Positions 19,706 to 58,465 are shown, counted from the stretch's first letter. The stretch: DNA of 64,000 nucleotides from an uncultured Bacillota bacterium (GCA_900317975.1 ONIZ01000001.1:323479-387478), one strand, 5' to 3'. Made by a program: numbers and translations. Notes: generated from the sequence alone by a model not told the origin.

Positions 19706-22486
19706 ATGATACTTGATAGAACATGGAATAAGAAAGACCAAAAATTGACTATTTCTTATATTGATAAGATGGGAAATAGAAAATTTTATTCAAGACATTT
19801 ACATCATATTAAGTCTTATGAATATGACGCAAATGGCGAATTTGAAACATGGAACGGAAAAAGAGCAAACAAGGTATTTAAGGATACTATGAATTATACT
19901 CCAAATGAATTTGACATTCTTGAATTCATGTATGAGTTACCAGAAGATCTAAATACTGAAATGCATGCTCAATATTTTCCAAAATTATATTTCTTTGATA
20001 TTGAGACTGAGGTAAGTGATGAGTTTCCTGATCCAGAATTAGCAGAACAAAAAGTTACAGCTATTTCATTAGTTGGGCCAGATCTAAGTTGTATTGTCTA
20101 TGGTCTTCACCAGTTGAATGAAGATCAGATTGCATTATTCAAAAAACGTTATCTTGATTGGATTGAGAATAATGAGTTTGCAAAGAATCTTGTTGAAAGT
20201 AATGGATGGAAACCTAAAGTCTTATATCAGCATTTCATTAATGAAGATGATATGCTTAAGCATTTCTTTACTATTATCATTCCTAAGATTGGTTGTTTAG
20301 CTGGTTGGAATTCATACGGATTTGACTGGCAGTATCTTGTAAATAGAATCATTAGAAGATTTGGTAAGAATGTTGCTTGGAATATGATAAGGAAAGCATC
20401 CCCAACAGGAGAGACAAGACAGTATAGTTGGGAAGATGTTGGTGGTGTAAAGAAGAAATGCCCAGGCCCATGTCATTCTATTATCTTGGACTATATGCAG
20501 ATTGTTAAAGACTATGATTATATTTTGAGACCTTATGAATCATATTCTTTGGATTGGGTAGGTAATGCTGCAGTAAAAGCTCATAAGATCAAATATGAGG
20601 GAACATTGCAAGATCTATATGAGAAAGATCCTGAGTGGTATTATTTCTATAATGCTATTGATAGTTGTATTGGAGAGCTTATTCATTATAAGTTGAAAGC
20701 TGTTGAATCACCATGTGCAGTATCTTCAGTAACATTGGTTCCTCTTCTTTCAGCTTTTGGACAAGTAGCCTTAGGAACAGCTAATGTATTTGAAGAGTTC
20801 TATTCACAAGGAAAGAAAGTTGTATGGGACTATGATGCTATAGAAAGAACAAAAGTACCGTATGAGGGAGCATTTTGTGCTTGTGTTCCAGGACGTTATG
20901 AGTTTTGTGTTTGTGATGATTTTGCTTCGCTTTATCCTTCTCAAGTTCGTACTTGCAATCTGTCATTTGAGAATTTCCATGAGAAGAGAGTTGGGCCAGA
21001 TAGCTTTGGTAGATATACAATTCAGAAATGGTCAGAGCAGGAGCTTGAAGAATTCCGTCATAACCCAGACTATTTTGTATCAGTAATGGGTAATGTATAT
21101 AAGAATGATAAAGACTATGCATTCCGTCGTATTCAGGCTAAATTAAAGGGCTTACGAGACAAATATAAGTATACTGGACAAAGAATAGATTCAGAACTAT
21201 TAGTAGAGATTGATAATATAATAAACAATAAGAAAAAGCATACAAAAGTATCTGATGATGTATTAGACCTTATGAAGTTGAAGTTTCATAAGACAATGGA
21301 TGATCTATATGAAATGGAAACTGAAGAGTTGAAGAAGTTTAGAGTTGAAGTTGTTGATCTCAGACATGAATATACTTTGCTTGAGTTAGCTCATAAGGTT
21401 TTGGGTAATGGATTGTATGGTGCTTGTGCTAATCAATACTTTTTCTTCTTTAATGCTTCACTTGCGGCAGACATCACGGGAGAATGCAGACATCTTACAA
21501 AGACTATGTGGCATAATTTGGAAGAGTTCTTCCATGAGACAATATGGAAACGTAAAGATCTTTGGGAGAAGTTTGATTTTGCTCTTGATGAAAGCATGCA
21601 TGAATGGTATAGGACAACTCCAGTAAGCGTATATTCTGACACTGACTCAGTCTATTCTACTTATGGAAATTTATTCAAATGCATGATGCCAGAATATAAA
21701 GAGAAATATAAAGAAGATCGTTCTAAGGTTGACTGGATTCTTAAATTCAATAAAGAGTTCTTGGATGGCCAGAACAATCAATGGTGTAGAGACATCTATG
21801 AACCAAGACATGGAAAGAATGTACATGAGTTTGAATTGGAGACAATTGTAAGGGCTCAGATATGTTTGAAGAAAAAGAAATACCTTAAGGGCTATGCTTA
21901 TGTGAAGGGTAAGTTCTATGATGTACCAAAGGTGTCTGGAACAGGTATTGAGATCATTAAGTCAACTACACCAAAGCTATGCAGGACTATATTGACAGAT
22001 CTTATGAATAGTCTTATGTTTGAGTATAATGAGAATGAGAAAGATCTATATATGATTAATTTCAATCAAAAGTTAGCTAACTACAGAAAACAGTTCTATA
22101 ATGCTCCTATTGAAGACATATCACAATCTGTTGGTGTTGGTGACTATAAGAAATATGTAGTTGAAGATGAAGATGCTCTTATTCTCGGTAAACAATGTCC
22201 TGTATCTGTCCAGTCAGTAGCAAGATTCAATTTTATGGCTCATCAAAATGGTGAGGACAACAAGAAGTTCTATTCAGGAAAGATCAAATATTATAATATA
22301 AGAATCAATGACAAGACAACTGGGTATTTCGGATATCAAGCTGGTGAACTGCCTGATTGGGCTCCTCCTATGGACAAACTAGTACAATGGAAGAAAACAG
22401 TCATTGATCCAATCAACAGGTTCTTGGAGGTAATGCAAATACCAGATGCTAATCCAACTGGAGCAATACAAATGAGTTTATTTTAA
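19706..22486 (+). CDS. family B replicative DNA polymerase (T4 gp43-like)
   Basis: 926 residues, close to T4 gp43 (898). The N-terminal 3'-5' exonuclease has ExoI FFDIETEV (Asp98, Glu100), ExoII WNSYGFDWQYL (Asp207) and ExoIII YNAIDSC (Asp319). The polymerase domain has motif A DDFASLYPSQVR (Asp405), motif B KVLGNGLYG (Lys564; Gly replaces the usual Ser) and motif C YSDTDSVYS (Asp645, Asp647). KKKKYLKGYAYVKG matches the conserved KKxY region. The protein ends in QMSLF, which matches the bacterial sliding-clamp-binding consensus QLxLF and the QLGLF end of E. coli Pol II. All catalytic residues are present, so it should be active. Confidence 0.97.
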   Translation: MILDRTWNKKDQKLTISYIDKMGNRKFYSRHLHHIKSYEYDANGEFETWNGKRANKVFKDTMNYTPNEFDILEFMYELPEDLNTEMHAQYFPKLYFFDIETEVSDEFPDPELAEQKVTAISLVGPDLSCIVYGLHQLNEDQIALFKKRYLDWIENNEFAKNLVESNGWKPKVLYQHFINEDDMLKHFFTIIIPKIGCLAGWNSYGFDWQYLVNRIIRRFGKNVAWNMIRKASPTGETRQYSWEDVGGVKKKCPGPCHSIILDYMQIVKDYDYILRPYESYSLDWVGNAAVKAHKIKYEGTLQDLYEKDPEWYYFYNAIDSCIGELIHYKLKAVESPCAVSSVTLVPLLSAFGQVALGTANVFEEFYSQGKKVVWDYDAIERTKVPYEGAFCACVPGRYEFCVCDDFASLYPSQVRTCNLSFENFHEKRVGPDSFGRYTIQKWSEQELEEFRHNPDYFVSVMGNVYKNDKDYAFRRIQAKLKGLRDKYKYTGQRIDSELLVEIDNIINNKKKHTKVSDDVLDLMKLKFHKTMDDLYEMETEELKKFRVEVVDLRHEYTLLELAHKVLGNGLYGACANQYFFFFNASLAADITGECRHLTKTMWHNLEEFFHETIWKRKDLWEKFDFALDESMHEWYRTTPVSVYSDTDSVYSTYGNLFKCMMPEYKEKYKEDRSKVDWILKFNKEFLDGQNNQWCRDIYEPRHGKNVHEFELETIVRAQICLKKKKYLKGYAYVKGKFYDVPKVSGTGIEIIKSTTPKLCRTILTDLMNSLMFEYNENEKDLYMINFNQKLANYRKQFYNAPIEDISQSVGVGDYKKYVVEDEDALILGKQCPVSVQSVARFNFMAHQNGEDNKKFYSGKIKYYNIRINDKTTGYFGYQAGELPDWAPPMDKLVQWKKTVIDPINRFLEVMQIPDANPTGAIQMSLF

Positions 22487-22498
22487 TATTACTTTCTA

Positions 22499-22526
22499 TT
22501 GAATTTTGACAGATTTTAACTATATT
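22499..22526 (+). promoter_or_regulatory. phage promoter for the NAD-salvage genes
   Basis: TTGAAT, 16 nt, TATATT, 29 nt before the nicotinamidase start and just after the polymerase stop. Confidence 0.7.
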
Positions 22527-22554
22527 GTTTATATAAATTAAAATATATATAAAT

Positions 22555-23205
22555 ATGAGTAAGAAGAATAAGATCACAAATTCAGTGAAGAAAACACTTG
22601 TTATTGTTGATGCTCAGAATGATTTCTGTAATCCTGATGGAGCATTGTATGTAAAAGGCGCAGAAAACATTGTCAAGCCTATTATTGATTATGTAAAGAA
22701 GAACAAGGCAACTATTGATCAGATCATTTTTACAAGAGACTGGCATTTGAACAAAGATGAGTCATTCAAGAAAAATGGTGGTATCTGGCCTGTTCATTGT
22801 GTACAGAATACTGAAGGTGCTAACATCAATAAGGAATTGTATGACGCATTGATTCAGACAAGAATTCCTGTAAAGATTGTCAATAAGGGAACAACATTCA
22901 ATCATGAAGAATATGGAGCGTTTGAACACTGTGGAACTTTCCATCATCTTTATCCTAATAGTACTCCAACTGTAAGCAATTGCTATTTTGCTAACTATGA
23001 GTCTTCTTCAGGAACAAGAATTGTCAATGAAGATGTAGTTGTATGTGGAGTTGCTGGTGACTATTGTGTAAAAGAGACAATTAAGAATCTTATTAAGCAC
23101 TGGAAAAACTTCAAGATTGAGGTCTTTATGGATGGTATTGCTTCTATTGATGATGGTACTTCTTTGATGGAACTTATTGAAGATAAAAATTTGAAAGTGA
23201 TCTAA
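22555..23205 (+). CDS. pncA: nicotinamidase
   Basis: 216 residues, the usual length. It hydrolyses nicotinamide to nicotinate and ammonia, the first step of the Preiss-Handler salvage route. The catalytic triad is visible: Asp19 in VIVDAQNDFC, Lys111 in VNKGTTF and Cys171 in VCGVAGDYCVKET. The metal site has Asp62 and His64 (TRDWH) and His81 (WPVHCVQNTEGA). No residue needed for activity is missing. It stands directly upstream of pncB, the enzyme that uses its product, and behind its own promoter. The stop codon overlaps the first of two 18-bp repeats in the pncA-pncB gap. Isochorismatase-family relatives have a similar fold, but the full triad plus metal site and the neighbour make nicotinamidase the clear call. 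Confidence 0.95.
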   Translation: MSKKNKITNSVKKTLVIVDAQNDFCNPDGALYVKGAENIVKPIIDYVKKNKATIDQIIFTRDWHLNKDESFKKNGGIWPVHCVQNTEGANINKELYDALIQTRIPVKIVNKGTTFNHEEYGAFEHCGTFHHLYPNSTPTVSNCYFANYESSSGTRIVNEDVVVCGVAGDYCVKETIKNLIKHWKNFKIEVFMDGIASIDDGTSLMELIEDKNLKVI

Positions 23206-23261
23206 AGTATCATATAGTAAACTTTAAGGCACTTTTTATATCATAAAGTATCATATAATAA
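23203..23261 (+). repeat. paired 18-bp direct repeats between pncA and pncB
   Basis: TAAAGTATCATATAGTAA (23203-23220) and TAAAGTATCATATAATAA (23244-23261) differ at one base and are 41 bp apart, about four helix turns. Such spacing suits an operator for a dimeric regulator, but nothing proves binding. Confidence 0.55.
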
Positions 23262-23298
23262 CTATTATTTAATAAGTTTAATATAAAAAATATTTACA

Positions 23299-24489
23299 AT
23301 GATTTATTCTATTCTTGACACAGATCTGTATAAGTTCACTACAAGTTATGCTTATATGAAATTGTTTCCAAATGCTGAATGTACTTTCACTTTCAAAGAC
23401 AGGAACAATGTAAAACGTACTCCACAGTTTCTTAAAAGATTCAAAGCAAAGCTTAAAGAGTTCTGTGAGAATGCTTGTCTTACATCTACTGAATATTATT
23501 TGCTTAAAGAATCTCATCGTAGTGATTTCATTCCAACATATTATTGGGAGTGGTTGTATTCATTCCGATTTGATTATGGCAAGATCAAAGTATATCTTAA
23601 TGAAGATGATGTACTTTGTATGGAGGTAACTGATAAATGCTATAAATGTACCTTATATGAGATTCCTTGTATGTTCCTTATTTCAGAGGTCAATAATGAA
23701 GACAAAGTTATTGATTGGGAACTAACAATGAATAAACTCAGAGAAAAAATTGATTTAGCTAATGAAAATGGAATGCTGTTCTCTGAGTTTGGTACACGTC
23801 GTAGATTCAGTCAAGAAGTTCAAGATCAGGTTTGCTGTATTTTAAAACAATATGCAAAGACTTGTGTAGGAACATCAAACGTATATTTCGCTCTTAAGTA
23901 TGGAATGAAGCCAATTGGTACACATCCACATGAATGGTTTATGTTCCATGGAGCACAGTATGGATATAAGCAGGCTAATTATATTGCTCTTGAGAATTGG
24001 GTAAATGTGTATGATGGAGATCTTGGTATTGCTCTTTCTGATACATATACATCAGATGTGTTCTTCAATAACTTCTCATTAAAACAGGCTAAGCTTTTTG
24101 ATGGGGTTCGTCAAGATTCAGGAGATGAAATTGAATTTATCAAAAAGACTATTGAATTCTACAAGGGAAAGGGAATTGATTATAGTAACAAAACAATTGT
24201 ATTCTCTAATGCTCTTGATTTTCCTAAAGCAGTAAAAATTAAGACATATTGTGATAATAGAAATATTAAATGTTCATTTGGAATCGGCACAAATCTTACA
24301 TGCGATGTATATGATAAAAATGGTGAAAATTATCCACATGAAAATATCGTAATGAAGATGTCTCAATGTAGAATGAATGAACATAGTTTATGGCATCCGG
24401 CAATTAAGATTTCTGATGATTTTGGAAAGCATATGGGAAATAATAAAGAATTTGAACATGCATGCTATGAATTGAACATTGTTATTTAA
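23299..24489 (+). CDS. pncB: nicotinate phosphoribosyltransferase
   Basis: 396 residues (E. coli PncB is 400). It converts nicotinate, PRPP and ATP to nicotinate mononucleotide. Family motifs in order: LLDTDLYK-like start (ILDTDLYKFTTSYAY), SEFGTRRRFSQEVQ (about 162-175), CVGTSNVYFA, GTHPHEWFMFHG with His211 at the phosphorylated His position, RQDSGDEIEF, IVFSNALDFPKAV and FGIGTNLTCD. These are PncB and not NAMPT/NadV signatures, matching a nicotinamidase upstream. The gene ends in a terminator-promoter element. The call is firm. Confidence 0.95.
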   Translation: MIYSILDTDLYKFTTSYAYMKLFPNAECTFTFKDRNNVKRTPQFLKRFKAKLKEFCENACLTSTEYYLLKESHRSDFIPTYYWEWLYSFRFDYGKIKVYLNEDDVLCMEVTDKCYKCTLYEIPCMFLISEVNNEDKVIDWELTMNKLREKIDLANENGMLFSEFGTRRRFSQEVQDQVCCILKQYAKTCVGTSNVYFALKYGMKPIGTHPHEWFMFHGAQYGYKQANYIALENWVNVYDGDLGIALSDTYTSDVFFNNFSLKQAKLFDGVRQDSGDEIEFIKKTIEFYKGKGIDYSNKTIVFSNALDFPKAVKIKTYCDNRNIKCSFGIGTNLTCDVYDKNGENYPHENIVMKMSQCRMNEHSLWHPAIKISDDFGKHMGNNKEFEHACYELNIVI

Positions 24490-24514
24490 ATTATAAATAA
24501 TATATAAGTTTTAT

Positions 24515-24545
24515 CCCAGAAATATTGAATTATTTCTGGGATTTA
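24515..24545 (+). terminator. hairpin after pncB, loop is the next promoter's -35
   Basis: A perfect 10-bp stem, CCCAGAAATA / TATTTCTGGG, has the 6-nt loop TTGAAT. The T tract is short (ATTTA), so termination may be weak. Confidence 0.65.
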
Positions 24546-24552
24546 CTATATT
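24525..24552 (+). promoter_or_regulatory. phage promoter embedded in the pncB terminator
   Basis: TTGAAT (the hairpin loop), 16 nt, TATATT. The spacer consists of the 3' hairpin arm and the T tract. Confidence 0.75.
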
Positions 24553-24578
24553 ATAACTGTAATTAAAAATATAAGAAT

Positions 24579-24821
24579 ATGTTAAAGTATAAATCATCAG
24601 ATGTTCAAAAGATGGTTGATATTTTTGCTAAAATTAGTGAAAATAAAGACAATCAGACAAAAGTAATGGATGAACTTAAGAAATTAGTTGACTATCCAGA
24701 AAACGTTATTCTAGAATTCTTGCATTGTATAGAAATTCTTAATGATAAAGATGAAACTTATCTTAAGGAAAACTACTGGGGAATTATTGGTTATATTACA
24801 ATGAGGTTGAATTTTTCTTAA
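24579..24821 (+). CDS. hypothetical helical protein
   Basis: 80 residues, helical and charged (MLKYKSSDVQKMVDIFAKIS...). It is first in a four-gene run behind the terminator-promoter. No family is recognised. Confidence 0.75.
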   Translation: MLKYKSSDVQKMVDIFAKISENKDNQTKVMDELKKLVDYPENVILEFLHCIEILNDKDETYLKENYWGIIGYITMRLNFS

Positions 24822-24834
24822 ATTATATATTAAT

Positions 24835-25158
24835 ATGTTTGCATTAATTAGAGGTACTGGCATGCTAGTTGGAATCTTTTCCACTAAAGAGCATATGAAA
24901 GTTGTCATTGAAGAACTGATTGAAAATGAATATCAGACTTCAGGAGCACATGGTGATTATAATTTCAGATATATTGAATTTGAAATTAATGAACCTTGGT
25001 TTAGTGATGATGAATATAATAAAGAAGTTGGTCAAGCACTATTCAGTCTGTCAACAATGCATACTGAGTATTTTAAGCATTGTATAAAGACAGATTGGTC
25101 TACTGGACAAATTCTTGATATGGATTCAGACAATACTACAAATATAAATGAAAGATAA
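24835..25158 (+). CDS. hypothetical protein
   Basis: 107 residues. The N-terminus MFALIRGTGMLVGIFSTKEH and a middle FRYIEFEINEPW suggest a small alpha-beta fold common in Bacteroidota phages. The C-terminus is acidic. Function unknown. Confidence 0.75.
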   Translation: MFALIRGTGMLVGIFSTKEHMKVVIEELIENEYQTSGAHGDYNFRYIEFEINEPWFSDDEYNKEVGQALFSLSTMHTEYFKHCIKTDWSTGQILDMDSDNTTNINER

Positions 25159-25160
25159 TT

Positions 25161-25433
25161 ATGAAAGTTTATATTGTATCAACTCAGGTATTTTTCAAAG
25201 AGAATGGAATTGAATATGCAATGGCTGTAGATCTCGATGATGATCTAAAACTATTTAGTGACTATTCTAGAGCTGTTAATGAATATAATTCTGTCATTAA
25301 TAATCTTAGAAATAATTTTATGGATCATGAAGAGGAAATTGTTAGACCATCTGAAGACTTGGGAACAGTTCTATATAATAAGTATGAAACTGTCAGTTAT
25401 GTTGTCAAACTAACATCTAAAGACGTCTATTGA
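25161..25433 (+). CDS. hypothetical protein
   Basis: 90 residues with an alternating beta-alpha pattern (MKVYIVSTQVFFKENGIEYA). It lies 2 nt after the previous gene and 1 nt before the next. Its layout resembles the small domain of the preceding gene. Function unknown. Confidence 0.75.
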   Translation: MKVYIVSTQVFFKENGIEYAMAVDLDDDLKLFSDYSRAVNEYNSVINNLRNNFMDHEEEIVRPSEDLGTVLYNKYETVSYVVKLTSKDVY

Positions 25434-25434
25434 T

Positions 25435-25845
25435 ATGAAAGAAAAACTGTTTTTTATTAGTTTAGCATGCATATTATCAGGTATAATAATTTATCTATTG
25501 GGTGGACTTATTTTCAGTTCTCGTCCAGTTGTTGTGAAAGAAACAAAAGACTACATTTATGTAAAGAAATATGCATTATATAATAGGGATTCTACAGTTT
25601 ATAAATATCATCAGCCAATAAAGTATGATGGTATTGTGACAAGAAAGTATAAATATGGATCTTGGACTGGATTACCCGGTAAGGGTGGTGTTTTTGTATA
25701 TCATTATAATGTTGATGTTCAGTTCAATAATACTACACATAGATTATATGGCAGAAATTATTATGATATGTTTAATGAAGGCAATAAAGTAATTGTAATA
25801 GAAAAGTTCTGGCCACGTAATGATTATGAATACATATTAAAATGA
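25435..25845 (+). CDS. membrane-anchored protein, PGKGG family
   Basis: 136 residues with one N-terminal transmembrane helix (about 5-27) and an extracytoplasmic beta-rich domain. Motifs YKYHQPIKYDGIV, GLPGKGGVF, YNVDVQFNN and VIVIEKFWPR also occur, diverged, in the gene at 40227. It is probably inner-membrane anchored and facing the periplasm. No known family. Confidence 0.8.
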   Translation: MKEKLFFISLACILSGIIIYLLGGLIFSSRPVVVKETKDYIYVKKYALYNRDSTVYKYHQPIKYDGIVTRKYKYGSWTGLPGKGGVFVYHYNVDVQFNNTTHRLYGRNYYDMFNEGNKVIVIEKFWPRNDYEYILK

Positions 25846-25870
25846 TAATATATAATTACTGTATTTTATT

Positions 25871-25899
25871 GTGAATTTTTATGGGTTAATTACTATATT
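25871..25899 (+). promoter_or_regulatory. probable phage promoter
   Basis: GTGAAT, 17 nt, TATATT, with the usual ACGTAATTAAAA tail, 28 nt before the next start. Confidence 0.5.
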
Positions 25900-25926
25900 T
25901 ATAACGTAATTAAAATTTATCAATAT

Positions 25927-27249
25927 ATGGGTACATATGTACATTTTTCAATCGGAGAAAATCTTGGCAAAGTTCTTCTTGATATTGCTCAAGAACATAT
26001 TTTGAATGGAGAACCTCAAGAGGCTATTGAAACATACGTAAAAAGTTTTAATGGTATGAATGAATCCTATGCATTGCAAATTCTTAGGAACAATTTTGTC
26101 ATTGAGACTTGTGAAGATGGTGTAAACATCAATCTTACAAATGATAAAAACGTAAGATTCCAGAATGCTGAATACATCTATGATTGGCAAAAACTTATGA
26201 ATGACAAGATCAAAGATTTACAAGGTTATGTTGAAAGTTATCATGAAATTGTAAAACAGTTTAATAAGCATTCAAATTATGCTATCTATGATGCAAATAT
26301 TACAGAAATTGTAAAGCGATATTATGGAGAGGAAAACATGTCTGATGTTGGTATTCATAATATTGCTGCAAAACTTATTGGAGGAGATGATTTTGCATGG
26401 AATCTTTATTCAAATGGTTCTAATGTCTGGTCTCATTTAGAAGGAGATGTTGAAAGTGGTGATGCTAAACCTTATCAATATGCACTGTATTTCATTGTAA
26501 AGTATGTCAATCTTATCAGATCAATGTATAAGGATTATGTCAAGTTTGAAAAATCTTATATATGGCTTTTAGATAAGATGTTTATCAAGCGTATTCCATT
26601 AGTTGAATCAGATATTGAAAATGTATTAGACATCATTAAAGAATTTTGTAATCCAAATACAGGATATTATCATCCAATGTGCGACGAAAAGATTACAGAT
26701 CTTAAAGAGACTATCTATGATGAAATTCTTAAGACATCTTGGGGAAAGGAATATCTACAGAATGGAATCATAAAGAAGAATATTATGGATGGTTATGATG
26801 CTGGTTGGCTGTCTCCAGATGGTGAATTCTATGGAGGTAATGGTCCAACTTCCGCTATGATTCATATGAATATTGCTGAACAGATCTTCAAGGGAAATAA
26901 TATATATGCTAATAGAATGGCAAAAGATGGTGTATCTATTTGGAGTGGAAGTAATTCACCTGACTATTGGCTCGAAAAGGATGGCTGGGTTAAGATCCAT
27001 CATAATGATTGTTACGGAGCATTCATTGGTGAAAGAAATCCTGAAAACAGAACACCAGATTTTCCTTATGCATATAAGCCCACAGATATTCAGATCAAAA
27101 TGATTTGCGACTATGCAGACAAATTTTATGGAGGAAAGTTCTATACAGAAGCAAATACACTTAGTAGAGACACACATCCAGATCCCTTTACAACTTATAA
27201 GGTTAGACAAATGGATGAATTCAAATTACATGAGATTTTTGGAAGATAA
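25927..27249 (+). CDS. hypothetical protein with repeated C-terminal motif
   Basis: 440 residues, soluble. The N-terminal 300 residues are helical and charged. Near residues 292-330 comes GWLSPDGEFYGGNGPTSAMI followed by HMNIAEQI. Near 352-420 the pattern returns in diverged form (DYWLEKDGWVKIHHNDCYG, then QIKMICDYADKFYGG). This W-L-x-x-D-G ... H ... A pattern appears in phage proteins of unknown function. No catalytic site can be assigned. It has its own promoter. Confidence 0.85.
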   Translation: MGTYVHFSIGENLGKVLLDIAQEHILNGEPQEAIETYVKSFNGMNESYALQILRNNFVIETCEDGVNINLTNDKNVRFQNAEYIYDWQKLMNDKIKDLQGYVESYHEIVKQFNKHSNYAIYDANITEIVKRYYGEENMSDVGIHNIAAKLIGGDDFAWNLYSNGSNVWSHLEGDVESGDAKPYQYALYFIVKYVNLIRSMYKDYVKFEKSYIWLLDKMFIKRIPLVESDIENVLDIIKEFCNPNTGYYHPMCDEKITDLKETIYDEILKTSWGKEYLQNGIIKKNIMDGYDAGWLSPDGEFYGGNGPTSAMIHMNIAEQIFKGNNIYANRMAKDGVSIWSGSNSPDYWLEKDGWVKIHHNDCYGAFIGERNPENRTPDFPYAYKPTDIQIKMICDYADKFYGGKFYTEANTLSRDTHPDPFTTYKVRQMDEFKLHEIFGR

Positions 27250-27279
27250 CAATGTCTATTTTAATTATAAAGTAAAGTT

Positions 27280-27435
27280 ATGACACAAGAGGATAAAGAA
27301 AAAATAACAAAGTTTTTGAAGACTAATTTGCATACCCATACGGATTGGACTGGAACATATGTTGAAACTCAATATAAATGTGAGAGTGTTGAGAAGTTTA
27401 TTGAAATATTTTTTAATTCAATTGAAGAAAAATAA
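27280..27435 (+). CDS. short LLQDLSARL-family relative
   Basis: 51 residues. MTQEDKEKITKFLKTNL resembles the start of the three tandem genes that follow (MTQEDKKLLLQDL), but the rest of the family domain is absent. It is a truncated or diverged copy. Confidence 0.55.
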   Translation: MTQEDKEKITKFLKTNLHTHTDWTGTYVETQYKCESVEKFIEIFFNSIEEK

Positions 27436-27462
27436 AAATCTAAAATAATAAAATAAGAAATA

Positions 27463-27654
27463 ATGGAAAGCAAATTTAAACTTGGTGACATATTCACTAA
27501 AAAACATACACGAGATACAATACCTATAGAAATATATGAAATATCTTATGATGCAAATGAACCAATATATAAGCTAAAACCCATTAGATTATGTGGTGAT
27601 GATGTTATATTAGGAGAAGAAGCATTAATAGAATTATATAATAAAATCAACTAA
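27463..27654 (+). CDS. hypothetical small protein
   Basis: 63 residues. FKLGDIFTKKHTRDTIPIEI and the following strands suggest a small SH3-like barrel. Proteins of this kind are frequent in Bacteroidota phages. Function unknown. Confidence 0.65.
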   Translation: MESKFKLGDIFTKKHTRDTIPIEIYEISYDANEPIYKLKPIRLCGDDVILGEEALIELYNKIN

Positions 27655-27667
27655 TATTTAATGAATT

Positions 27668-28132
27668 ATGACACAAGAGGATAAAAAACTATTATTGCAA
27701 GATCTTAGTGCAAGGCTGTCGTATGGTGTAATTGTAAGTACCCCTAAAGGTAATGGTCATCTTTGTACAATCAATCAAACCATATTTGGAAATGAATATG
27801 GGGTGAATATTGAAGCCACAAAAAGAGACAACTTTAATGATAATGAATGCGACATCAAACCTTATCTTTGCCCAATATCAAGTATGACGAAGAAAGAAAC
27901 TAAAGAATTATTTAAAGAGATTGGTTTTGAATTCACTTGTAATACTTGGAGAATTCCCGCACATTATAATTATGAGTTTGCCAAACAGATTAAAGGAATT
28001 CCAACTATCACTAATGTTGAATTCGTAAAGATGATTGATTGGCTTAATGCTCATCATTTTGATTATAGGGGACTTATTGAAAAGGGTCTTGCTATTGCTG
28101 TTACAGAAGAAAATAATCCTTATAAAGAATAA
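27668..28132 (+). CDS. LLQDLSARL-family protein, tandem copy 1
   Basis: 154 residues. The layout is M-T-Q-E-D-K, LLLQDLSARLSYG, a variable beta-rich middle, KPYLCPISSMTKKE, a variable helix, then DWLNAHHFDYRGLIEKG. I recognise this as a family of unknown function common in gut Bacteroidales phages. It heads three tandem copies whose last 35 codons are nearly identical in DNA, a sign of recent duplication. Confidence 0.85.
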   Translation: MTQEDKKLLLQDLSARLSYGVIVSTPKGNGHLCTINQTIFGNEYGVNIEATKRDNFNDNECDIKPYLCPISSMTKKETKELFKEIGFEFTCNTWRIPAHYNYEFAKQIKGIPTITNVEFVKMIDWLNAHHFDYRGLIEKGLAIAVTEENNPYKE

Positions 28133-28136
28133 AGTT

Positions 28137-28517
28137 ATGATACAAGAAGAAAAACAATTACTGTTGAAGGACCTTAGTGCAAGGTTGATGTATGGAATAA
28201 TCTGTAAATGCTTACATAGTAATAATGTTAAAGCAACAGCAATTGATACAGAAGATTCATCAGTATATTATTTTGATTGTGATGAATGGGAATCTATTGA
28301 ATATTGCAAGCCATATCTCCGTCCAATGTCTTCAATGACTGATGAAGAGAAAAAAGAATTATTTGAGATTGGTTGTGAAGGAAATATTGAATATCCTTAT
28401 GGTATGTACTTTAGATGTCAAGACTGGCTTAATGCTCATCATTTTGATTATCGTGGACTTATTGAAAAGGGTCTTGCTATTGCTGTTACTGAAGAAAATA
28501 ATCCTTATAAAAAATAA
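28137..28517 (+). CDS. LLQDLSARL-family protein, tandem copy 2
   Basis: 126 residues from the ATG five bases after the upstream stop; the frame is open further upstream only as a shadow. It has LLLKDLSARLMYG, KPYLRPMSSMTDEEKKELF and the shared C-terminus. The middle differs strongly from copy 1, so ends are conserved and centres vary. Confidence 0.85.
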   Translation: MIQEEKQLLLKDLSARLMYGIICKCLHSNNVKATAIDTEDSSVYYFDCDEWESIEYCKPYLRPMSSMTDEEKKELFEIGCEGNIEYPYGMYFRCQDWLNAHHFDYRGLIEKGLAIAVTEENNPYKK

Positions 28518-28521
28518 AGTT

Positions 28522-28932
28522 ATGACACAAGAAGAAAAACAACTATTGATCCAAGACCTTTCAACAAGGTTGCCATACAAAACGTATGTTAAAACAACAA
28601 AAGGCATTGGCTATGTCTATGCTATAAATACCTCTCAATTAGTTGAATTAAGCGTTGCTAATGATTCTGAATATTGGTCAGAAGTATTTAATATTGAGAA
28701 AATAAAACCATATCTCCGCTCAATGTCAAGTATGACTGAGGAAGAGACTATTGAATTTATAAATCTTACAGATAGTATTATAAAATTTGTAAATAAGCAT
28801 TATGCGGTATTAAGTCTTCAACAAATTGACTGGCTCAATGTACATCACTTTGACTATCAGGAATTAATTCCAAAAGGTCTTGCCATTGAGGTAACAAAAG
28901 ATAATAATCCTTATGAAAAACAATACAGTTAA
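28522..28932 (+). CDS. LLQDLSARL-family protein, tandem copy 3
   Basis: 136 residues: LLIQDLSTRLPYKTYVKTTK, KPYLRSMSSMTEEETIEF and the diverged end DWLNVHHFDYQELIPKGLAI. It is the most diverged of the three. It overlaps the next gene by 20 nt. Confidence 0.85.
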   Translation: MTQEEKQLLIQDLSTRLPYKTYVKTTKGIGYVYAINTSQLVELSVANDSEYWSEVFNIEKIKPYLRSMSSMTEEETIEFINLTDSIIKFVNKHYAVLSLQQIDWLNVHHFDYQELIPKGLAIEVTKDNNPYEKQYS

Positions 28933-29230
28933 GCAAATACGAGTATGTCTTGAAGAAGTTGCATCTTCAATTAATGAGTTTATTGACGAAATAATTGAAG
29001 ATTTTAAATTAAAAGAAGCATATAAGAATGGTGAAGAAGTAGAGATACAATATAGAGGAATTGGGCTTAACGGGGATTTTCATGAAGACATTCATCGTTC
29101 TGATGACGAGATAATCTATATACTTCATAATGACAAAACTGTTGGAATAATAATTGAAAGACGTACATCTTTCAATAATGCTGAACTTACATTCATAAAA
29201 ACATCAAAAAGAAAATTTAGAAAACTATGA
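28913..29230 (+). CDS. hypothetical protein
   Basis: 105 residues: helical N-terminus (EEVASSINEFIDEIIEDFKL), then a small beta region and a basic C-terminus (KTSKRKFRKL). It overlaps its neighbours at both ends. Function unknown. Confidence 0.75.
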   Translation: MKNNTVKQIRVCLEEVASSINEFIDEIIEDFKLKEAYKNGEEVEIQYRGIGLNGDFHEDIHRSDDEIIYILHNDKTVGIIIERRTSFNNAELTFIKTSKRKFRKL

Positions 29231-29622
29231 AAATTAATGAAAACATTAAGACTGAATTACCTTGTCCTCCTGATATGGATAAGCAATGTATAGAATTATA
29301 TTATCTTTTGAATAGTCTGCCTGACACACATACATTTGAATCTTGTTGTGGGCATGAAAGAGAAGTATATATGATGTTCTTCAGATGCTTTAATATTGGT
29401 GTATTATCAAGATTAGGAAGGGCTGTTTCAAGAAACTATTCTGACGGCAATTGGGAGATTGTCATTGATATAACAGACACAATGCCTTATGGGTGCTTCT
29501 GGCTTAGGACAACAAGTGTCCTTAAAAAGGATGAACTTGATGAAAGTCTTAAGGGGCTTATTGATAACATCCAATATTGGTTCAATGATGAGTTTGACAA
29601 TTATTTCAGTATAGACAAATAA
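29227..29622 (+). CDS. hypothetical protein
   Basis: 131 residues. CPPDMDKQCIELYYLLNSLP, FESCCGHER and FWLRTTSV are reminiscent of a small phage protein family with a conserved Cys-Cys-Gly-His. Metal binding is possible. Function unknown. Confidence 0.8.
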   Translation: MKINENIKTELPCPPDMDKQCIELYYLLNSLPDTHTFESCCGHEREVYMMFFRCFNIGVLSRLGRAVSRNYSDGNWEIVIDITDTMPYGCFWLRTTSVLKKDELDESLKGLIDNIQYWFNDEFDNYFSIDK

Positions 29623-29636
29623 TCTATAAGAATCAA

Positions 29637-29664
29637 TTGAATTTTCTGAAGATTGTTCTATATT
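29637..29664 (+). promoter_or_regulatory. phage promoter (TTGAAT-16-TATATT)
   Basis: Exact hexamers with 16-nt spacing and a TAATTGTAATAATTA tail. It is the nearest promoter upstream of nadE. Confidence 0.7.
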
Positions 29665-29695
29665 ATAATTGTAATAATTAAAAATTGAATATATT

Positions 29696-29815
29696 ATGTA
29701 TACAAGAGCAGAATTGTTAGAAATGGGAATGGATGAGCTTGAGCAGCTTTATGAAGAGTCTGCTGGAGACTATGATTCAGTAGAAGATCTTATGGAGTCT
29801 AATGGATTAATTTAG
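29696..29815 (+). CDS. 39-residue acidic protein
   Basis: MYTRAELLEMGMDELEQLYE and an acidic tail, wholly helical. It lies directly downstream of a strong promoter match. Function unknown. Confidence 0.55.
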   Translation: MYTRAELLEMGMDELEQLYEESAGDYDSVEDLMESNGLI

Positions 29816-29836
29816 GTAATAATTAAATTTTTGAAT

Positions 29837-30142
29837 ATGAAGTTTACAATTGGAATTAAGCCTACTATTCTAACGGGATATGGAACAACAAAGGCCGCAA
29901 AGGAAAGAGTTAGAAGTTCAGTAAATCAGTGTTTTAGTTATTCATCTATAGGAAATGGGTGGATGAATTCAAAATATGTTTATGGATATAATATTGAGGT
30001 TTATAAACGTGGAAAGCATCGTCACAATAAGCATTATATTGTTTATAAATATACATTTCCCATTGAAATGTTTAAGCTTATGAATGTTGAAATTTCACAA
30101 GGTCCCAGAACATTTAAGATTACCAGAAAAAAAATAATATAA
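29837..30142 (+). CDS. hypothetical basic protein
   Basis: 101 residues from the ATG, preferred over a TTG two codons earlier. It is basic and aromatic-rich (KHRHNKHYIVYKYTF). It could bind nucleic acid, but no motif shows this. It overlaps the next start by 1 nt. Confidence 0.7.
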   Translation: MKFTIGIKPTILTGYGTTKAAKERVRSSVNQCFSYSSIGNGWMNSKYVYGYNIEVYKRGKHRHNKHYIVYKYTFPIEMFKLMNVEISQGPRTFKITRKKII

Positions 30143-30267
30143 TGGAAATTGATTATCAAAAACTGTTTCAAGATGCTGCTATAGCATGGCAGGAAAATGA
30201 TTATAAACCAATTCACATTAGTAATAGATTTCTTAATATTATAAATAAACATTGTAAAAATAGATAG
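30142..30267 (+). CDS. hypothetical small protein
   Basis: 41 residues (MEIDYQKLFQDAAIAWQEND...), helical. It lies 2 nt before nadE, so it is probably coupled to it. Confidence 0.5.
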   Translation: MEIDYQKLFQDAAIAWQENDYKPIHISNRFLNIINKHCKNR

Positions 30268-30269
30268 TT

Positions 30270-31160
30270 ATGGACTACGCAAAAGTTTTTGAAACAATGG
30301 TTAATGAGACACAGAAATATCTTGAGTCAAATAATCTTCAAGCAATGATTTTGGGTATTTCTGGCGGATTAGACTCAACAGTTACAGCTGCAATTTGTCA
30401 TGAGGTTGAGAAACGAAATCCAGAGCTCAAGTTTATTGGTATTTCTCTTCCATGTTCCTCAAATTCTGAAGAAGAAAATGATTCCGCAAAAATTTGCATG
30501 AAGGCATTTTGTAAGTCAGGACAATGGTGGACAGAGAATCTTCAGAAGGAATATATGCTTATGCGAGCTACTTGTTCACAAAGACATCTTATGACAACAA
30601 TTGGTCAGGGAAATATCAAGGCTCGTCTTCGTATGACATATCTTTATAATGAAGCTAATTATTTCAACGGTCTTGTAATGGACACTGACAATCTTACAGA
30701 GCATTATCTTGGATTCTTCACAATTCATGGAGATGTTTGTGACTTCAATCCAATCGGTGGCCTTTGGAAGCATGAAGTATATTATCTTGCAGAGTATCTT
30801 TATACAGATTATTATGATGCTCCGTTTGGTCCTGATGGAGAAAGACATTTGGCTTTAGAACATGCTTTGAAGATCACTCCTACAGATGGAAACGGAGTAA
30901 ATGATCTTGGAGACATGGGACAGATTGCTCCTGAATTTGCTTATTGTAAGAATATGGATGCTTATGAAAAGGTAGACAATATTATCAGGACATATCTTTA
31001 TGGCATTCAGAGTCATCCTGAGGTATTTCAGGCAAGCATGCAGACATTATATGATACATATACACCAGAAACAGTAGATGGTATTATCAGAAGAATAAAA
31101 TCTACAGAATACAAACGTAAGAAACTTCCTATTGTAGTTGGCAGAAAAAAATATGAATAA
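30270..31160 (+). CDS. nadE: NAD synthetase, ammonia-dependent type
   Basis: 296 residues (E. coli NadE is 275). It amidates nicotinate adenine dinucleotide to NAD using ATP and ammonia. Visible motifs: the ATP pyrophosphatase loop ISGGLDSTVTAA (about 30-41), GQGNIKARLRMTYLYNEAN, MDTDNLTEHYLGFFTIHGD, FNPIGGLWKHEVY and near the end RRIKSTEYKRKKLPIV. There is no glutaminase domain, so it should use free ammonia, the by-product of the phage nicotinamidase. It completes, except for the NadD step, a nicotinamide-to-NAD route with pncA and pncB 6-8 kb upstream. Confidence 0.95.
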   Translation: MDYAKVFETMVNETQKYLESNNLQAMILGISGGLDSTVTAAICHEVEKRNPELKFIGISLPCSSNSEEENDSAKICMKAFCKSGQWWTENLQKEYMLMRATCSQRHLMTTIGQGNIKARLRMTYLYNEANYFNGLVMDTDNLTEHYLGFFTIHGDVCDFNPIGGLWKHEVYYLAEYLYTDYYDAPFGPDGERHLALEHALKITPTDGNGVNDLGDMGQIAPEFAYCKNMDAYEKVDNIIRTYLYGIQSHPEVFQASMQTLYDTYTPETVDGIIRRIKSTEYKRKKLPIVVGRKKYE

Positions 31161-31191
31161 TATTTAAGAAGATAATTAAAATTTTTGAATT

Positions 31192-31314
31192 ATGGCTTAT
31201 GTGATTTCAGATGAAGAGTTAGATAGAATTTGTGAAAGGTCAGAACAGACTTGTGGATGTGATTGCAAGAACTGTGAAGCATTCTGGGCAAATTATCGGT
31301 ATAATAATCAATAA
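31192..31314 (+). CDS. Cys-rich miniprotein
   Basis: 40 residues with five Cys, four of them in CGCDCKNC. This is too compact for a standard zinc ribbon. It may bind a metal or cluster. It follows nadE by 31 nt. Confidence 0.55.
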   Translation: MAYVISDEELDRICERSEQTCGCDCKNCEAFWANYRYNNQ

Positions 31315-31329
31315 AAAAGAATAAGTATT

Positions 31330-31551
31330 ATGAAAAAGAAATTTGGTATTATAACAATTATTATGGTTTTTGTTATTGGGTTTATGATTGGCGTATTTAC
31401 AAATTCAGTAAAAGCAGTCAAATCTCCAGATCCAGTACCAGCAGTCAATAATGTACAAAGATATAGTGTAGATGTTCAAAGTGTCTATTACAATGGAAGA
31501 ACATATGTAGTATTCACTTCATCAGCTCCAAGTATGTGTGTTAGACCATAA
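31330..31551 (+). CDS. small exported or membrane-anchored protein
   Basis: 73 residues with an N-terminal hydrophobic segment (about 4-22) and a short polar remainder (YSVDVQSVYYNGRTYVVFTS). It may be anchored or secreted. Function unknown. Confidence 0.7.
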   Translation: MKKKFGIITIIMVFVIGFMIGVFTNSVKAVKSPDPVPAVNNVQRYSVDVQSVYYNGRTYVVFTSSAPSMCVRP

Positions 31552-31570
31552 ATCAATTAAAGTATAGAAT

Positions 31571-31846
31571 ATGGAGACAGTAAAAGTAGAAAATAGTCAG
31601 ACAGATAAGATCAATGAGTTCAAGAAACTGCTTCATTCAGGTATTGTGGAATTCAAATATACAAAGAAGAATGGAGAAGTTAGGGATGCTCGTGGTACAT
31701 TGTCTATTGATGTAATGGGAAAAGAGAATGAGCCTAAGGGAGGTGGAAAAGAATATCCGGAGAATGTTGTAAGATATTATGACTTGAATTCTGAAGGATG
31801 GCGTTCATTTGTCTTTGAAAACTTGATTGAATACAAAAAGACATAA
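31571..31846 (+). CDS. DUF2693-like (WYL_2/Sm-like SH3 fold) protein
   Basis: 91 residues. VEFKYTKKNGEVRDARGTLS, VRYYDLNSEGWRSFVFENLI matches the pattern of DUF2693 proteins, small SH3-like barrels in Bacteroidota phages and hosts. The function of the family is unknown. Its leader (ATCAATTAAAG) is repeated before the next gene. Confidence 0.75.
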   Translation: METVKVENSQTDKINEFKKLLHSGIVEFKYTKKNGEVRDARGTLSIDVMGKENEPKGGGKEYPENVVRYYDLNSEGWRSFVFENLIEYKKT

Positions 31847-31869
31847 ATATATCAATTAAAGCATAAGTT

Positions 31870-32070
31870 ATGAATCGTCTTAAAGCATTATGGAGAGTAC
31901 TTATATCTGATGAGTTCTTTGTTATGACAACTCATCAGATAATTGAAAGTGACTATAATCATCACGAATTAGAATATAAATGTATCAAGAACACTCATAG
32001 AGAAGGTTTTAAATATTATCTATACAGGTGGTTGCATGATCATGAAGCCTCTTTCTATGATGATATGTAG
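31870..32070 (+). CDS. hypothetical small protein
   Basis: 66 residues, rich in Tyr and His (NHHELEYKCIKNTHREGFKY). No family is recognised. About 100 nt of AT-rich sequence with no gene follow. Confidence 0.65.
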   Translation: MNRLKALWRVLISDEFFVMTTHQIIESDYNHHELEYKCIKNTHREGFKYYLYRWLHDHEASFYDDM

Positions 32071-32169
32071 TCAATGTTCTTTTATATATATTTATTTGTA
32101 ATAAAAGAAAACTATTTATATGAAAATGTTTTATTATTTTATAACAAATATATATAATAAATAGACTTA

Positions 32170-32340
32170 ATGAAACCAGTTGAGAAATTTCAAAGAATTA
32201 GAGACTATATAGATTCCCAGAATATTTGTGATTTTCTTATTGAATATATGAGTGATGATGAGCTTGAGAATCTATGTCATGAATTAGAAGAAGAATTTGA
32301 TGTACAATATGACGATGAATACGAAGAATATGAATATTAA
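32170..32340 (+). CDS. hypothetical acidic protein
   Basis: 56 residues. The C-terminal half is very acidic (EEEFDVQYDDEYEEYEY), suggesting a disordered or DNA-mimic-like tail. It overlaps the next gene by 11 nt. Confidence 0.65.
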   Translation: MKPVEKFQRIRDYIDSQNICDFLIEYMSDDELENLCHELEEEFDVQYDDEYEEYEY

Positions 32341-32524
32341 AGAACAATTAAACAAGCTTATACTTGATACAGCTGAAGCTAATGCAAAAGAAGCTATAAG
32401 TCAATTGAAGGAATCAAAGTTTGGAGATCTTGAGAAATCACTTATGATTGTCTTAAAGAATCTTTACATCAAAGGTATAAATGACGGTGCTCAATTAACA
32501 CTTCAGAGTAAACCTGAAAAGTAG
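32330..32524 (+). CDS. hypothetical helical protein
   Basis: 64 residues from the ATG at the overlap; earlier in-frame ATGs lie inside the upstream gene. The sequence is helical (MNIKEQLNKLILDTAEANAK...). Its stop is followed by a second open stretch in the -1 frame. Confidence 0.65.
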   Translation: MNIKEQLNKLILDTAEANAKEAISQLKESKFGDLEKSLMIVLKNLYIKGINDGAQLTLQSKPEK

Positions 32525-32616
32525 AAGTCAAGTATACAGGAATAATTCACACAGATGGCCGCAGAATGACCCAGACTCATCTCAATATAAAGAGTAATAA
32601 AATTATATATCCTTAG
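32521..32616 (+). other. start-less open stretch in the -1 frame
   Basis: 31 codons (VEVKYTGIIHTDGRRMTQTH...) read in the -1 frame from GAAAAG at the end of the previous gene, with no start codon of their own. This may be a gene remnant, an extension made by frameshifting, or chance. Confidence 0.3.
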
Positions 32617-32643
32617 AAAAACAGTTTAGTAGAGTTCATCAGA

Positions 32644-32991
32644 ATGTCTCAGAATGCAATTAATACTTTTAACATTTCTATCTATCAAGAGTTATTGAAA
32701 AGATATGATTATGGATTAAGACAAATGAAGAAGTATAATATGATCTATGATAAGATGAGAGGATATTATACTGCTAAAGACATAAAGTATATTATGGGAG
32801 TATATAAAGATGATCTCATAGACATAATAAACAGTAATTTGTTCAGTCTTTTTGTTCCTGACAAAGTAAAGAAAGATATATTGAAATTTATTCCAATTAT
32901 TGAATCAACATATTTACAGAAGCATTATGATTCAGTAATTGACAAGTTTGAAAAGATTAAATCAATGTTTTTCATAACAATAAACCCTTGA
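32644..32991 (+). CDS. hypothetical helical protein
   Basis: 115 residues, basic and Tyr-rich (YQELLKRYDYGLRQMKKYNM...), all helical. Its stop lies inside a strong terminator. Function unknown. Confidence 0.75.
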   Translation: MSQNAINTFNISIYQELLKRYDYGLRQMKKYNMIYDKMRGYYTAKDIKYIMGVYKDDLIDIINSNLFSLFVPDKVKKDILKFIPIIESTYLQKHYDSVIDKFEKIKSMFFITINP

Positions 32992-33015
32992 TAGTACGCT
33001 ATCAAGGGTTTTTAT
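32982..33015. terminator. strong bidirectional terminator
   Basis: A perfect 13-bp stem, AAACCCTTGATAG / CTATCAAGGGTTT, with a 4-nt loop and T-rich flank, lies between convergent genes. Confidence 0.95.
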
Positions 33016-37507: not shown

Positions 37508-39397
37508 ATGACTCAAAAGGAAAAACTGGAGCTTTACAATAAAGCAAAAGAGGCTTATTACAATGGTCAGGAGATTATGACTGACTATGAGTTTGACCAA
37601 TTGGAGAAGGAGCTTGGTCTTGAGAACAAATCAAATGTCGGTTCTAAGCATAATCCTTCTTATACCGTCAAGCATCCATTCATTATGGGTTCTCTTTCAA
37701 AAGTACAGATCCATAAAGACAAGGATGGCAACATTGACTGGAAAAAATACAATGAGCAGGTTGCTAACTATATTGATATGGAGAATTCTTTTCATGTTAT
37801 CATTACTCCTAAATTTGATGGTTGCTCATTTGAATGTGAAATCAACAATGACAAGATCCAGTCAATTTCTTCAAGAGGAGATGGCAAATGGGGTAAAGAC
37901 TTAATGAATCATCTAATCAATTTCATTCCAAGTGAATATGTACATTTAGAGGGCCATTATGTACTTCGTGGAGAGGTATTGGTGAAGAAGTCAATATTTG
38001 AACAGAAATATGCAGAGAAGTTTACTAATCCCCGTTCGTTTGTTTCTGGTGTTTTGAACCGAGATTATAGTGGATTAGATAAAGAATTTCTTGAAATGCT
38101 TAATGATCTTTCAATTGTTATTTATGACTATAGATCTGAGCGTTATGGGACTTGGATTGATCATGAGTTTACTGAGCTTCCTTATAATAATGTTCTTCCT
38201 TCTTATTATAATAGAGATGCTTCAATTTATGAATCTGATGCTCTTGAGAAAGTATATAATGCATATGCTGATTATCGAAAGACCTGTGAATATGCTTTGG
38301 ATGGAATTGTAATCAAACCTATTGTTAAGAATCGTAGAAATAATCTTACTGAACATCGTCCTAAGGATTGTGTAGCAATTAAATTCATTCCCATGCTTCA
38401 GGAAACAGAAGTCGTGAATATCACCTGGAACCTCGGTAAGACTCATGAATTCATTCCTATTATTTGGGTAAAACCTGTAGAGATGGATGGCCGAATGGTA
38501 CAGAAGTGTTCAGGTCATAATCTTGGTTATCTTCGTCAAAAAGGAATTACTGTTGGTGCAAAGATTATTATGAGTTTGGCTGGTGACATTATTCCATTTA
38601 TGTACAAGGTGACTCAAGAAAATCCTGATGGAGAAATCCCAATGCCAACTACTTATGGTTATTATGAGGATGACATCCACCTGATGGCACTTATGGAGAT
38701 GAAAGACAGAATCAGAATGCAATTCTTGTCTTCAGTAACATCACTTAATATCCCAACAATTGGTAATCAAACTGCAAAAGAAATATGGGAATATTTAGAC
38801 AATACTGATGAACAAACTATGGAGTTTTTTGAAGTGGAGAAAAAAGAAATGCCATTCAATATTCTGCTTTGCTCACCTGAGGAAGTTTATTTTGGCGCTG
38901 GTTGTGGAAAACTTGGAGAAAATGCCAAGAAAGCATTTAAGAACATTCTTGATAATCTCACTCTTAATGACATTGTCAAATCATGTAATTTTCCATTCTG
39001 TGGTCCAAAAGTTGCAGAACAGGTTGTAAATCATCTTCTTGGTGAAATTCCTAATTGGGCTCATCTTGCAACAGAAGGATATCTTTGGGTATATGATACT
39101 AATTCATGGCAATATCAAAATGTTATGAAGATTCTGAATCATCTTGGAAAGAATTTTGATGACTTCAAGTTCCAACATCAAGAAGCTGTCAAAGAATCAT
39201 CCAATCAGATTCCAGTCATTCTTACTGGTGAACCTGTCAACTATAAGTCAAAGGGAGAGTTCTTGAAGCTTAACCCACAATATAGAAATACAGGATCATG
39301 GAAAGAGGTACAGATTGTATTTACCAATTCTATGGATAGTAATACAGGCAAGATGAAGAAAGCAAGAGAGAAGAACATTGAAATTAGATTATATTAA
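37508..39397 (+). CDS. ligA: NAD-dependent DNA ligase lacking the zinc finger
   Basis: 629 residues (bacterial LigA about 670). It seals nicks using NAD+, releasing NMN. Domain Ia: YYNGQEIMTDYEFDQLE, with the NMN-binding Tyr and Asp residues. The adenylated Lys102 lies in TPKFDGCSFEC. It has SSRGDGKWGKDL, LRGEVLVKKSIFE, NPRSFVSGVLN, LDGIVIKP and AIKFIP, and an OB-fold stretch WNLGKTHEFIPIIWVKPVEM. The four-Cys zinc finger expected after the OB fold is absent. Helix-hairpin-helix-like sequence follows, and the end (VILTGEPV ... NTGKMKKAREKNIEIRL) is a diverged BRCT. It creates direct NAD demand in a phage that also encodes NAD salvage. Confidence 0.95.
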   Translation: MTQKEKLELYNKAKEAYYNGQEIMTDYEFDQLEKELGLENKSNVGSKHNPSYTVKHPFIMGSLSKVQIHKDKDGNIDWKKYNEQVANYIDMENSFHVIITPKFDGCSFECEINNDKIQSISSRGDGKWGKDLMNHLINFIPSEYVHLEGHYVLRGEVLVKKSIFEQKYAEKFTNPRSFVSGVLNRDYSGLDKEFLEMLNDLSIVIYDYRSERYGTWIDHEFTELPYNNVLPSYYNRDASIYESDALEKVYNAYADYRKTCEYALDGIVIKPIVKNRRNNLTEHRPKDCVAIKFIPMLQETEVVNITWNLGKTHEFIPIIWVKPVEMDGRMVQKCSGHNLGYLRQKGITVGAKIIMSLAGDIIPFMYKVTQENPDGEIPMPTTYGYYEDDIHLMALMEMKDRIRMQFLSSVTSLNIPTIGNQTAKEIWEYLDNTDEQTMEFFEVEKKEMPFNILLCSPEEVYFGAGCGKLGENAKKAFKNILDNLTLNDIVKSCNFPFCGPKVAEQVVNHLLGEIPNWAHLATEGYLWVYDTNSWQYQNVMKILNHLGKNFDDFKFQHQEAVKESSNQIPVILTGEPVNYKSKGEFLKLNPQYRNTGSWKEVQIVFTNSMDSNTGKMKKAREKNIEIRLY

Positions 39398-39769: not shown

Positions 39770-39773
39770 ACAT

Positions 39774-57805: not shown

Positions 57806-58465
57806 ATGCAAAAAGAATTAATTAACAAACGAATTGATCTTCTATTATCTATAACCGAAAGAGCCGGAAAATATAGAAACAATAGACCATATAAAGCATG
57901 GCTTCCAGAAAATGTAACAGATGCAACTGCTTCTCAAAATGATTATGTAAAATATCTCTGTAAAGGAACTCCAAAGACTATTTATGATGGAAGATTTGTT
58001 GCAGTATCAGGATTCATTTTTGCAGTTGTAGATGGTAAATATTCTATCTTAGCTAATCTTCGTGGTCAAGGTACTCCAGACTATCAAGGCTATTGGAATG
58101 CCCCTTGTGGTTATCTTGAACGATTTGAAAATTCTAAACAAGGTATTCAACGAGAGATCTTTGAGGAATGTGGCTTTATTATTGATACAAAAGACCTGAA
58201 GATCAAACATGTAGAGACAGAACCTGAGGAATGCAATAATGGAAATGTAACAATCAGACATACCGCATTCCTTGGAAAGATCAAACCAGAATATGTCAAT
58301 AAGACAGGTGGAGAAGAAAATGAAGTTGATTCTGTAAAATGGATTCCTATTGATGAATTAGACAATTATAAATGGGCATTCAACCATCGTAAGACAATTG
58401 AGAAATATGCTCCTAAAAAATGGAAACGTAAGTTGGTTGAATTCTATTATGCATCATTATTTTAA
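57806..58465 (+). CDS. Nudix hydrolase
   Basis: 219 residues. The Nudix box is complete at about 102-124: G, five residues, E, seven residues (NSKQGIQ), then REIFEECGF. The flanks fit the fold: GFIFAVVDGKYSILANLRGQ before, and NVTIRHTAFLGKIKPE and VDSVKWIPIDELD after. Nudix enzymes cleave nucleoside diphosphates linked to another group, such as ADP-ribose, NADH, Ap4A, dNTPs or RNA caps. The specific substrate cannot be read from the sequence. With NAD salvage in the same genome, ADP-ribose or NAD(H) are candidates. T4 has a Nudix enzyme of similar role (NudE.1). Confidence 0.92.
   Translation: MQKELINKRIDLLLSITERAGKYRNNRPYKAWLPENVTDATASQNDYVKYLCKGTPKTIYDGRFVAVSGFIFAVVDGKYSILANLRGQGTPDYQGYWNAPCGYLERFENSKQGIQREIFEECGFIIDTKDLKIKHVETEPEECNNGNVTIRHTAFLGKIKPEYVNKTGGEENEVDSVKWIPIDELDNYKWAFNHRKTIEKYAPKKWKRKLVEFYYASLF

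Follow-up and report, generated by a model that had tools for sequence, protein, structure and literature searches.

A 64,000-nucleotide stretch of DNA from an uncultured Bacillota bacterium, referred to here as the window, encodes three enzymes of the deamidated (Preiss-Handler) route of nicotinamide adenine dinucleotide (NAD) salvage, namely the putative nicotinamidase PncA, the nicotinate phosphoribosyltransferase PncB, and the NAD synthetase NadE. The window spans positions 323479-387478 on a contig of 410,106 bp, which is also IMG/VR record IMGVR_UViG_2799112330_000002 and is binned with a 1.9-Mb metagenome-assembled genome (MAG). Judging from the sequence, these genes are probably a phage copy of the bacterial deamidated salvage pathway that raises or restores NAD, most likely against NAD loss, including the loss caused by NADase defences. 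A wider proposal, which we advance tentatively and at slightly less than even confidence, is that PncA-PncB-NadD-NadE constitutes a third phage NAD-restoring route that runs via nicotinate, was assembled several times by large phages with PncB taken from different sources, counters NAD-depleting immunity and, in some phages, relies on the NadD adenylyltransferase of the host.

Three intact salvage genes in a jumbo phage

The contig carries virion genes for a head maturation protease, a major head protein, a tail sheath and a baseplate wedge protein. The window also encodes a family B DNA polymerase (19706..22486, plus strand; PF00136 and PF03104) and a 629-residue NAD-dependent DNA ligase (37508..39397, plus strand; PF01653 and PF03120), the latter a phage consumer of NAD. 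The contig therefore belongs to a contractile-tailed jumbo phage. Its ends do not overlap and it is not circular.

The first-pass annotation had reported PncA, PncB and NadE as complete enzymes with intact catalytic motifs, and both points held; the three open reading frames (ORFs) are at the stated location, all on the plus strand. The polymerase gene, which marks the start of the accessory block, lies directly upstream of pncA (22555..23205); pncB (23299..24489) starts 94 bp past the end of pncA, and nadE (30270..31160) follows after another 5.8 kb, an interval that contains small genes. PncA (216 residues; nicotinamide to nicotinate) passes the cut-off of the isochorismatase family PF00857 (44.9 bits) and gives a partial match to the nicotinamidase equivalog PRK11609 that falls under its cut-off (74 vs 174 bits). 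Because of this shortfall, the predicted nicotinamidase specificity rests on fold and residues. The best matches of the PncA AlphaFold2 model (predicted local distance difference test score, pLDDT, of 83) are the nicotinamidases 1ilw, 3r2j and 2h0r; this model and that of NadE were built from viral alignments only. Residues D19/K111/C171, which we take to be the catalytic triad, and D62/H64/H81, presumably the metal ligands, do not vary in any of the viral sequences aligned at these positions (108-116 of 116).

The assignments of the other two enzymes follow from equivalog profiles. PncB (396 residues), which would convert nicotinate and phosphoribosyl pyrophosphate (PRPP), with ATP, to nicotinate mononucleotide (NaMN), passes the TIGR01514 cut-off with 363 bits against the 269.6 required; among solved structures it is closest to the nicotinate phosphoribosyltransferase 2im5 of Porphyromonas gingivalis (E 1.7e-97). 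NadE (296 residues; nicotinate adenine dinucleotide, NaAD, to NAD) passes TIGR00552 (129.5 vs 63.7 bits), and its AlphaFold2 model (pLDDT 89) gives a full-length Foldseek match to the NH3-dependent NAD synthetase 1xng (E 6e-13). H211 of PncB is identical in 127/127 aligned viral sequences and the SGGxDS loop of NadE is kept in about 142/143, both of which are presumably functional sites of their families. NadE lacks a glutaminase domain and, from its length and modeled fold, should therefore use ammonia.

Taken together, these assignments suggest how the set could act. During infection, PncA would convert nicotinamide, including that freed by NAD cleavage, to nicotinate, from which PncB, with PRPP, would form NaMN. 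An adenylyltransferase of the NadD type, the phage's own in many related phages and the host's here, would produce NaAD, and NadE would amidate NaAD to NAD. NAD would in this way be kept up while the phage replicates, and would also feed users such as the phage DNA ligase. Where a defence system cleaves NAD to nicotinamide and ADP-ribose, PncA could take up the freed nicotinamide, and a Nudix hydrolase could, given known Nudix chemistry, turn ADP-ribose into AMP and ribose-5-phosphate, a precursor of PRPP. Restoration of NAD after NADase defence is plausible on this gene content; we infer the enzyme activities, their timing, the use of host NadD, and the counter-defence role.

Recurrence and origin of the set

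If the three genes work together, they should be found together in other phages, as the first-pass annotation had proposed to check; clusters of them do recur across many large, unrelated phages. Profile-guided scans of IMG/VR returned 145 contigs that encode a relative of PncB or of NadE, for which the neighbourhood within ±10 kb was fetched. PncA, PncB and NadE are all present within that distance in 70/145, and 33 of these 70 also have NadD. Contigs of 140-412 kb are among the carriers. When whole records were searched, NadE was present in 11/11 large PncB-bearing records and a clear NadD in 14/25 large PncB-bearing viral records.

Among 50,697 GenBank phage records, PncB was found in 13, PncA in 14, and NadE in 36. 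The PncB records contain PncA in 10/13 cases (expected 0.004) and NadE in 9/13 (expected 0.009), counts that include near-duplicate records and are uncorrected for genome size. An illustrative calculation restricted to 500-1000 large genomes, with 6 of 10 distinct genomes as the count, still gives p < 1e-5, and the trio is not together by chance. Cultured phages are represented as well: Sinorhizobium phage Phosso encodes PncA, a NadM-like adenylyltransferase, a Nudix protein, PncB, and NadE in a stretch of roughly 6 kb, and in Agrobacterium phage Atu_ph07 these five functions are all present but lie further apart. The family assignments extend to other phages, with PncB passing the TIGR01514 cut-off in 10/10, two NadDs scoring above that of TIGR00482 (144 and 123 vs 112), and one PncA above that of PRK11609 (212 vs 174).

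Genes of ADP-ribose metabolism accompany a portion of these clusters. A Nudix family is present in 30/104 phage NAD neighbourhoods, and its profile finds a member on the window contig, a 219-residue hydrolase (57806..58465, plus strand; PF00293, 45.9 bits). NADAR, Macro, and ADP-ribosylglycohydrolase genes also lie near some phage NAD clusters, in the case of the last family on seven phage contigs. On contig 3300037400_001691 (9002-13162 of the locus), NadD-NADAR-PncB-NadE-Nudix-PncA stand side by side, which amounts to the full deamidated route plus two ADP-ribose-related enzymes. The window phage itself has a second Nudix gene close to an ADP-ribosylglycohydrolase-family gene (C82:222854-224763).

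With regard to origin, the window phage PncB nests among Bacteroidales PncBs in a PncB tree, which suggests a Bacteroidales host. We also considered whether it was copied from the binned MAG and rejected this, as the MAG PncB is of another type (PF04095 scores of 36.8 vs 185.6 bits) and the phage one groups with Bacteroidales. Across the tree the label switches between phage and bacterial at least six times, as estimated by a quick method with long branches among distant rows and a bacterial sample of the 80 nearest sequences. On this topology phage PncBs appear to have been acquired several times, and the same set would therefore have been assembled repeatedly rather than passed down whole from a single ancestor.

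Several neighbouring features were recorded in addition. Between pncB and nadE (27668-28932), the window encodes three tandem, related small proteins with a common HFDYRGLIEKGLAIAVTEENNPYK-like ending, and similar small proteins lie near the NAD cluster of 3300037400_001691. Downstream, two genes for radical S-adenosylmethionine (SAM) proteins directly flank one for an NADPH-dependent flavin mononucleotide (FMN) reductase (34059-36604). In 19 contigs, a radical SAM family with a distant relationship to these lies close to the phage NAD cluster. Scans gave no clear signal for promoters, with 81 promoter-like sites against 64 ± 8 in shuffled sequence, or for terminators, which were about as frequent as in shuffles. 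A 420-residue ORF interrupts the DNA polymerase gene of a relative, 3300028805_004760 (20000-39999 region, reverse complement 1864-6417), and probably encodes an intron- or intein-borne homing endonuclease.

The missing NadD step and competing explanations

The first-pass annotation had read PncA, PncB and NadE as a set that restores NAD. The deamidated salvage enzymes are real, but the route is incomplete in the window phage because NadD, which converts NaMN to NaAD between PncB and NadE, is missing, a gap that the annotation had overlooked. No NadD was found on the whole 410-kb contig by motif search, tblastn, Pfam, two phage-built NadD profiles, or closer reading of the best weak hits. Most relatives of about 400 kb do carry the gene; in the closest, 3300031994_002305 (376 kb), NadD comes after the Nudix gene, whose window homologue is followed by other genes. 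NadD is a near-universal housekeeping enzyme of bacteria, so the host can supply this step, and the route would close here only with host NadD. The MAG carries its own NadD, and the broader PF01467 family is present in all 14 control genomes.

The only HIGH-type nucleotidyltransferase on the contig, P0001 (C82:72821-73924), was considered as the missing NadD. It matches cytidyltransferase families, and 3300031994_002305 has a homologue, in the same head-type setting, in addition to a true NadD; P0001 was rejected on these grounds. It sits inside a run of proteins outside the window (C82:70309-77207) with near-identical N-terminal peptides (MKSINEYITES, MLTLKEYITE, and similar), which resemble the capsid-targeting sequences of T4-type internal head proteins, and it has an internal copy of the peptide (MMTLKEYIFEAQ). 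Searches that started from P0001 and from the major head protein returned few relatives.

Some observations weigh against the proposal that the genes restore NAD in the face of its loss. Without NadD on its contig, the phage alone cannot make NAD by the deamidated route. The MAG has a salvage operon of its own (C54:3251-7270) that encodes NadD, NadE, Nudix, PncB, and PncA, a composition also seen in several phage clusters, so the phage genes could have a purely metabolic function. PncB and NadE were not found in relatives with a 67-78% identical DNA polymerase, whose contigs are partial and reach at most 236 kb; three of these relatives (polymerase 77-78% identical) were inspected and have other genes after the polymerase. 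The set is therefore an accessory block, and this variable presence weakens any claim of essentiality, while it fits a pressure that differs between hosts.

A general supply of NAD, with no link to defence, is a serious rival. The set would then be an ordinary metabolic supplement that meets phage demand from the ligase, a large genome and a long infection, or that serves hosts short of precursors. The DNA ligase in the window, the equal make-up of the MAG operon, and the many phages that encode NadE alone, without the rest of the set, all agree with such a role. Patchy presence among close relatives and repeated assembly would, however, suit the variable pressure of an arms race better than a constant need, and ADP-ribose-linked families (Nudix, NADAR, Macro, ADP-ribosylglycohydrolase) lie near many clusters, points that are no more than suggestive. 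We regard the supplement as a real possibility that falls somewhat short of even. It is unlikely, in comparison, that the genes are a broken remnant in which NadD was lost, PncA and PncB carry nicotinamide no further than NaMN, and NadE is a vestige. The position of NadD after the Nudix gene in the closest relative would agree with such a loss, but PncA, PncB, and NadE are all intact with full catalytic residues, and host NadD can bridge the gap. Moreover, since the contig ends do not overlap, a small unassembled piece could carry the missing gene.

Two further explanations are weaker still. Francisella has an NMN synthetase that converts NaMN to nicotinamide mononucleotide (NMN), and if NadE acted on NaMN in this way, the route would run from NaMN through NMN to NAD and NadD would be unneeded. 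The Francisella enzyme, 3fiu, is the third-ranked structural match of NadE; however, the matches to 1xng and to many genuine NAD synthetases are just as good, the same NadE is accompanied by NadD in relatives, and the contig has no clear NMN adenylyltransferase, which makes this reading very improbable. Finally, the co-occurrence might reflect bacterial DNA miscalled as viral, as some short matches look bacterial and record MT836462 has only bacterial-type genes around pncB. This is already contradicted by the virion genes on the window contig, by the length of the contigs that carry the set, and by the complete genomes of the two cultured phages, and we give it next to no weight. Restoration of NAD against its loss is the reading that we prefer.

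Relation to known phage NAD-restoring systems

Phage NAD genes have been reported before in other combinations. Two phage-wide surveys discuss NadV, NadM, and NadR and do not mention PncA, PncB, or NadE by name (PMC9503650, PMC7824862). For Xanthomonas phage X1, pncB, nadM, nadD, nadE, and NAMPT were listed in July 2026 and a counter to NAD depletion was suggested (PMC13384950). X1 is a single genome treated by annotation, and the portion of its account consulted here does not include pncA, conservation, or cluster analysis (PMC13384950). NadE and PncB occur singly in phage annotations, and we found no description of PncA-PncB-NadD-NadE as a recurrent phage module in the open-licence literature.

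The two established phage NAD-restoring routes both keep nicotinamide amidated. If our proposal is correct, the recurrent deamidated set would mean that phages also use the nicotinate branch of salvage, which would add to the counter-defence genes worth searching for and explain the stray PncA, PncB, and NadE annotations in jumbo phages. Phosso and Atu_ph07 are cultured systems in which the idea can be examined.

Bacterial Preiss-Handler operons, such as that of the MAG, encode PncA-PncB-NadD-NadE, often with Nudix, and share their enzymes, chemistry, and, in several phages, gene make-up with the phage sets. The phage set differs from them in being an accessory block and, in the window phage, in the absence of NadD. 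NARP2 is composed of NadV and NadR. Together with the NadV and NadR/NatV-type NMN adenylyltransferase of Vibrio phage KVP40, it is likewise a phage system for nicotinamide salvage through a mononucleotide, but its route is amidated and proceeds via NMN, whereas here the phosphoribosyltransferase is PncB and is accompanied by PncA and NadE. NadV was not found on the contig, where the single family member is PncB with only a weak match to phrog_448 (37 bits), nor was an NMN adenylyltransferase of the NadR or NadM type, as the only HIGH-type enzyme is the cytidyltransferase-like head-cluster protein P0001.

NARP1 consists of Adps and Namat (PMC12774641). Like the set described here, it is phage encoded and rebuilds NAD from the nicotinamide that NADase defence produces, as the phage set would (PMC12774641). 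A Namat (Nampt-like) enzyme is absent, PncB being the sole protein of the nicotinate phosphoribosyltransferase/Nampt family on the contig. The claim that the deamidated set is distinct from both NARP1 and NARP2 was borne out: NARP1 takes two steps to couple nicotinamide back onto ADP-ribose pyrophosphate, whereas the set in the window would deamidate nicotinamide, use PRPP, and need both NadD and NadE.

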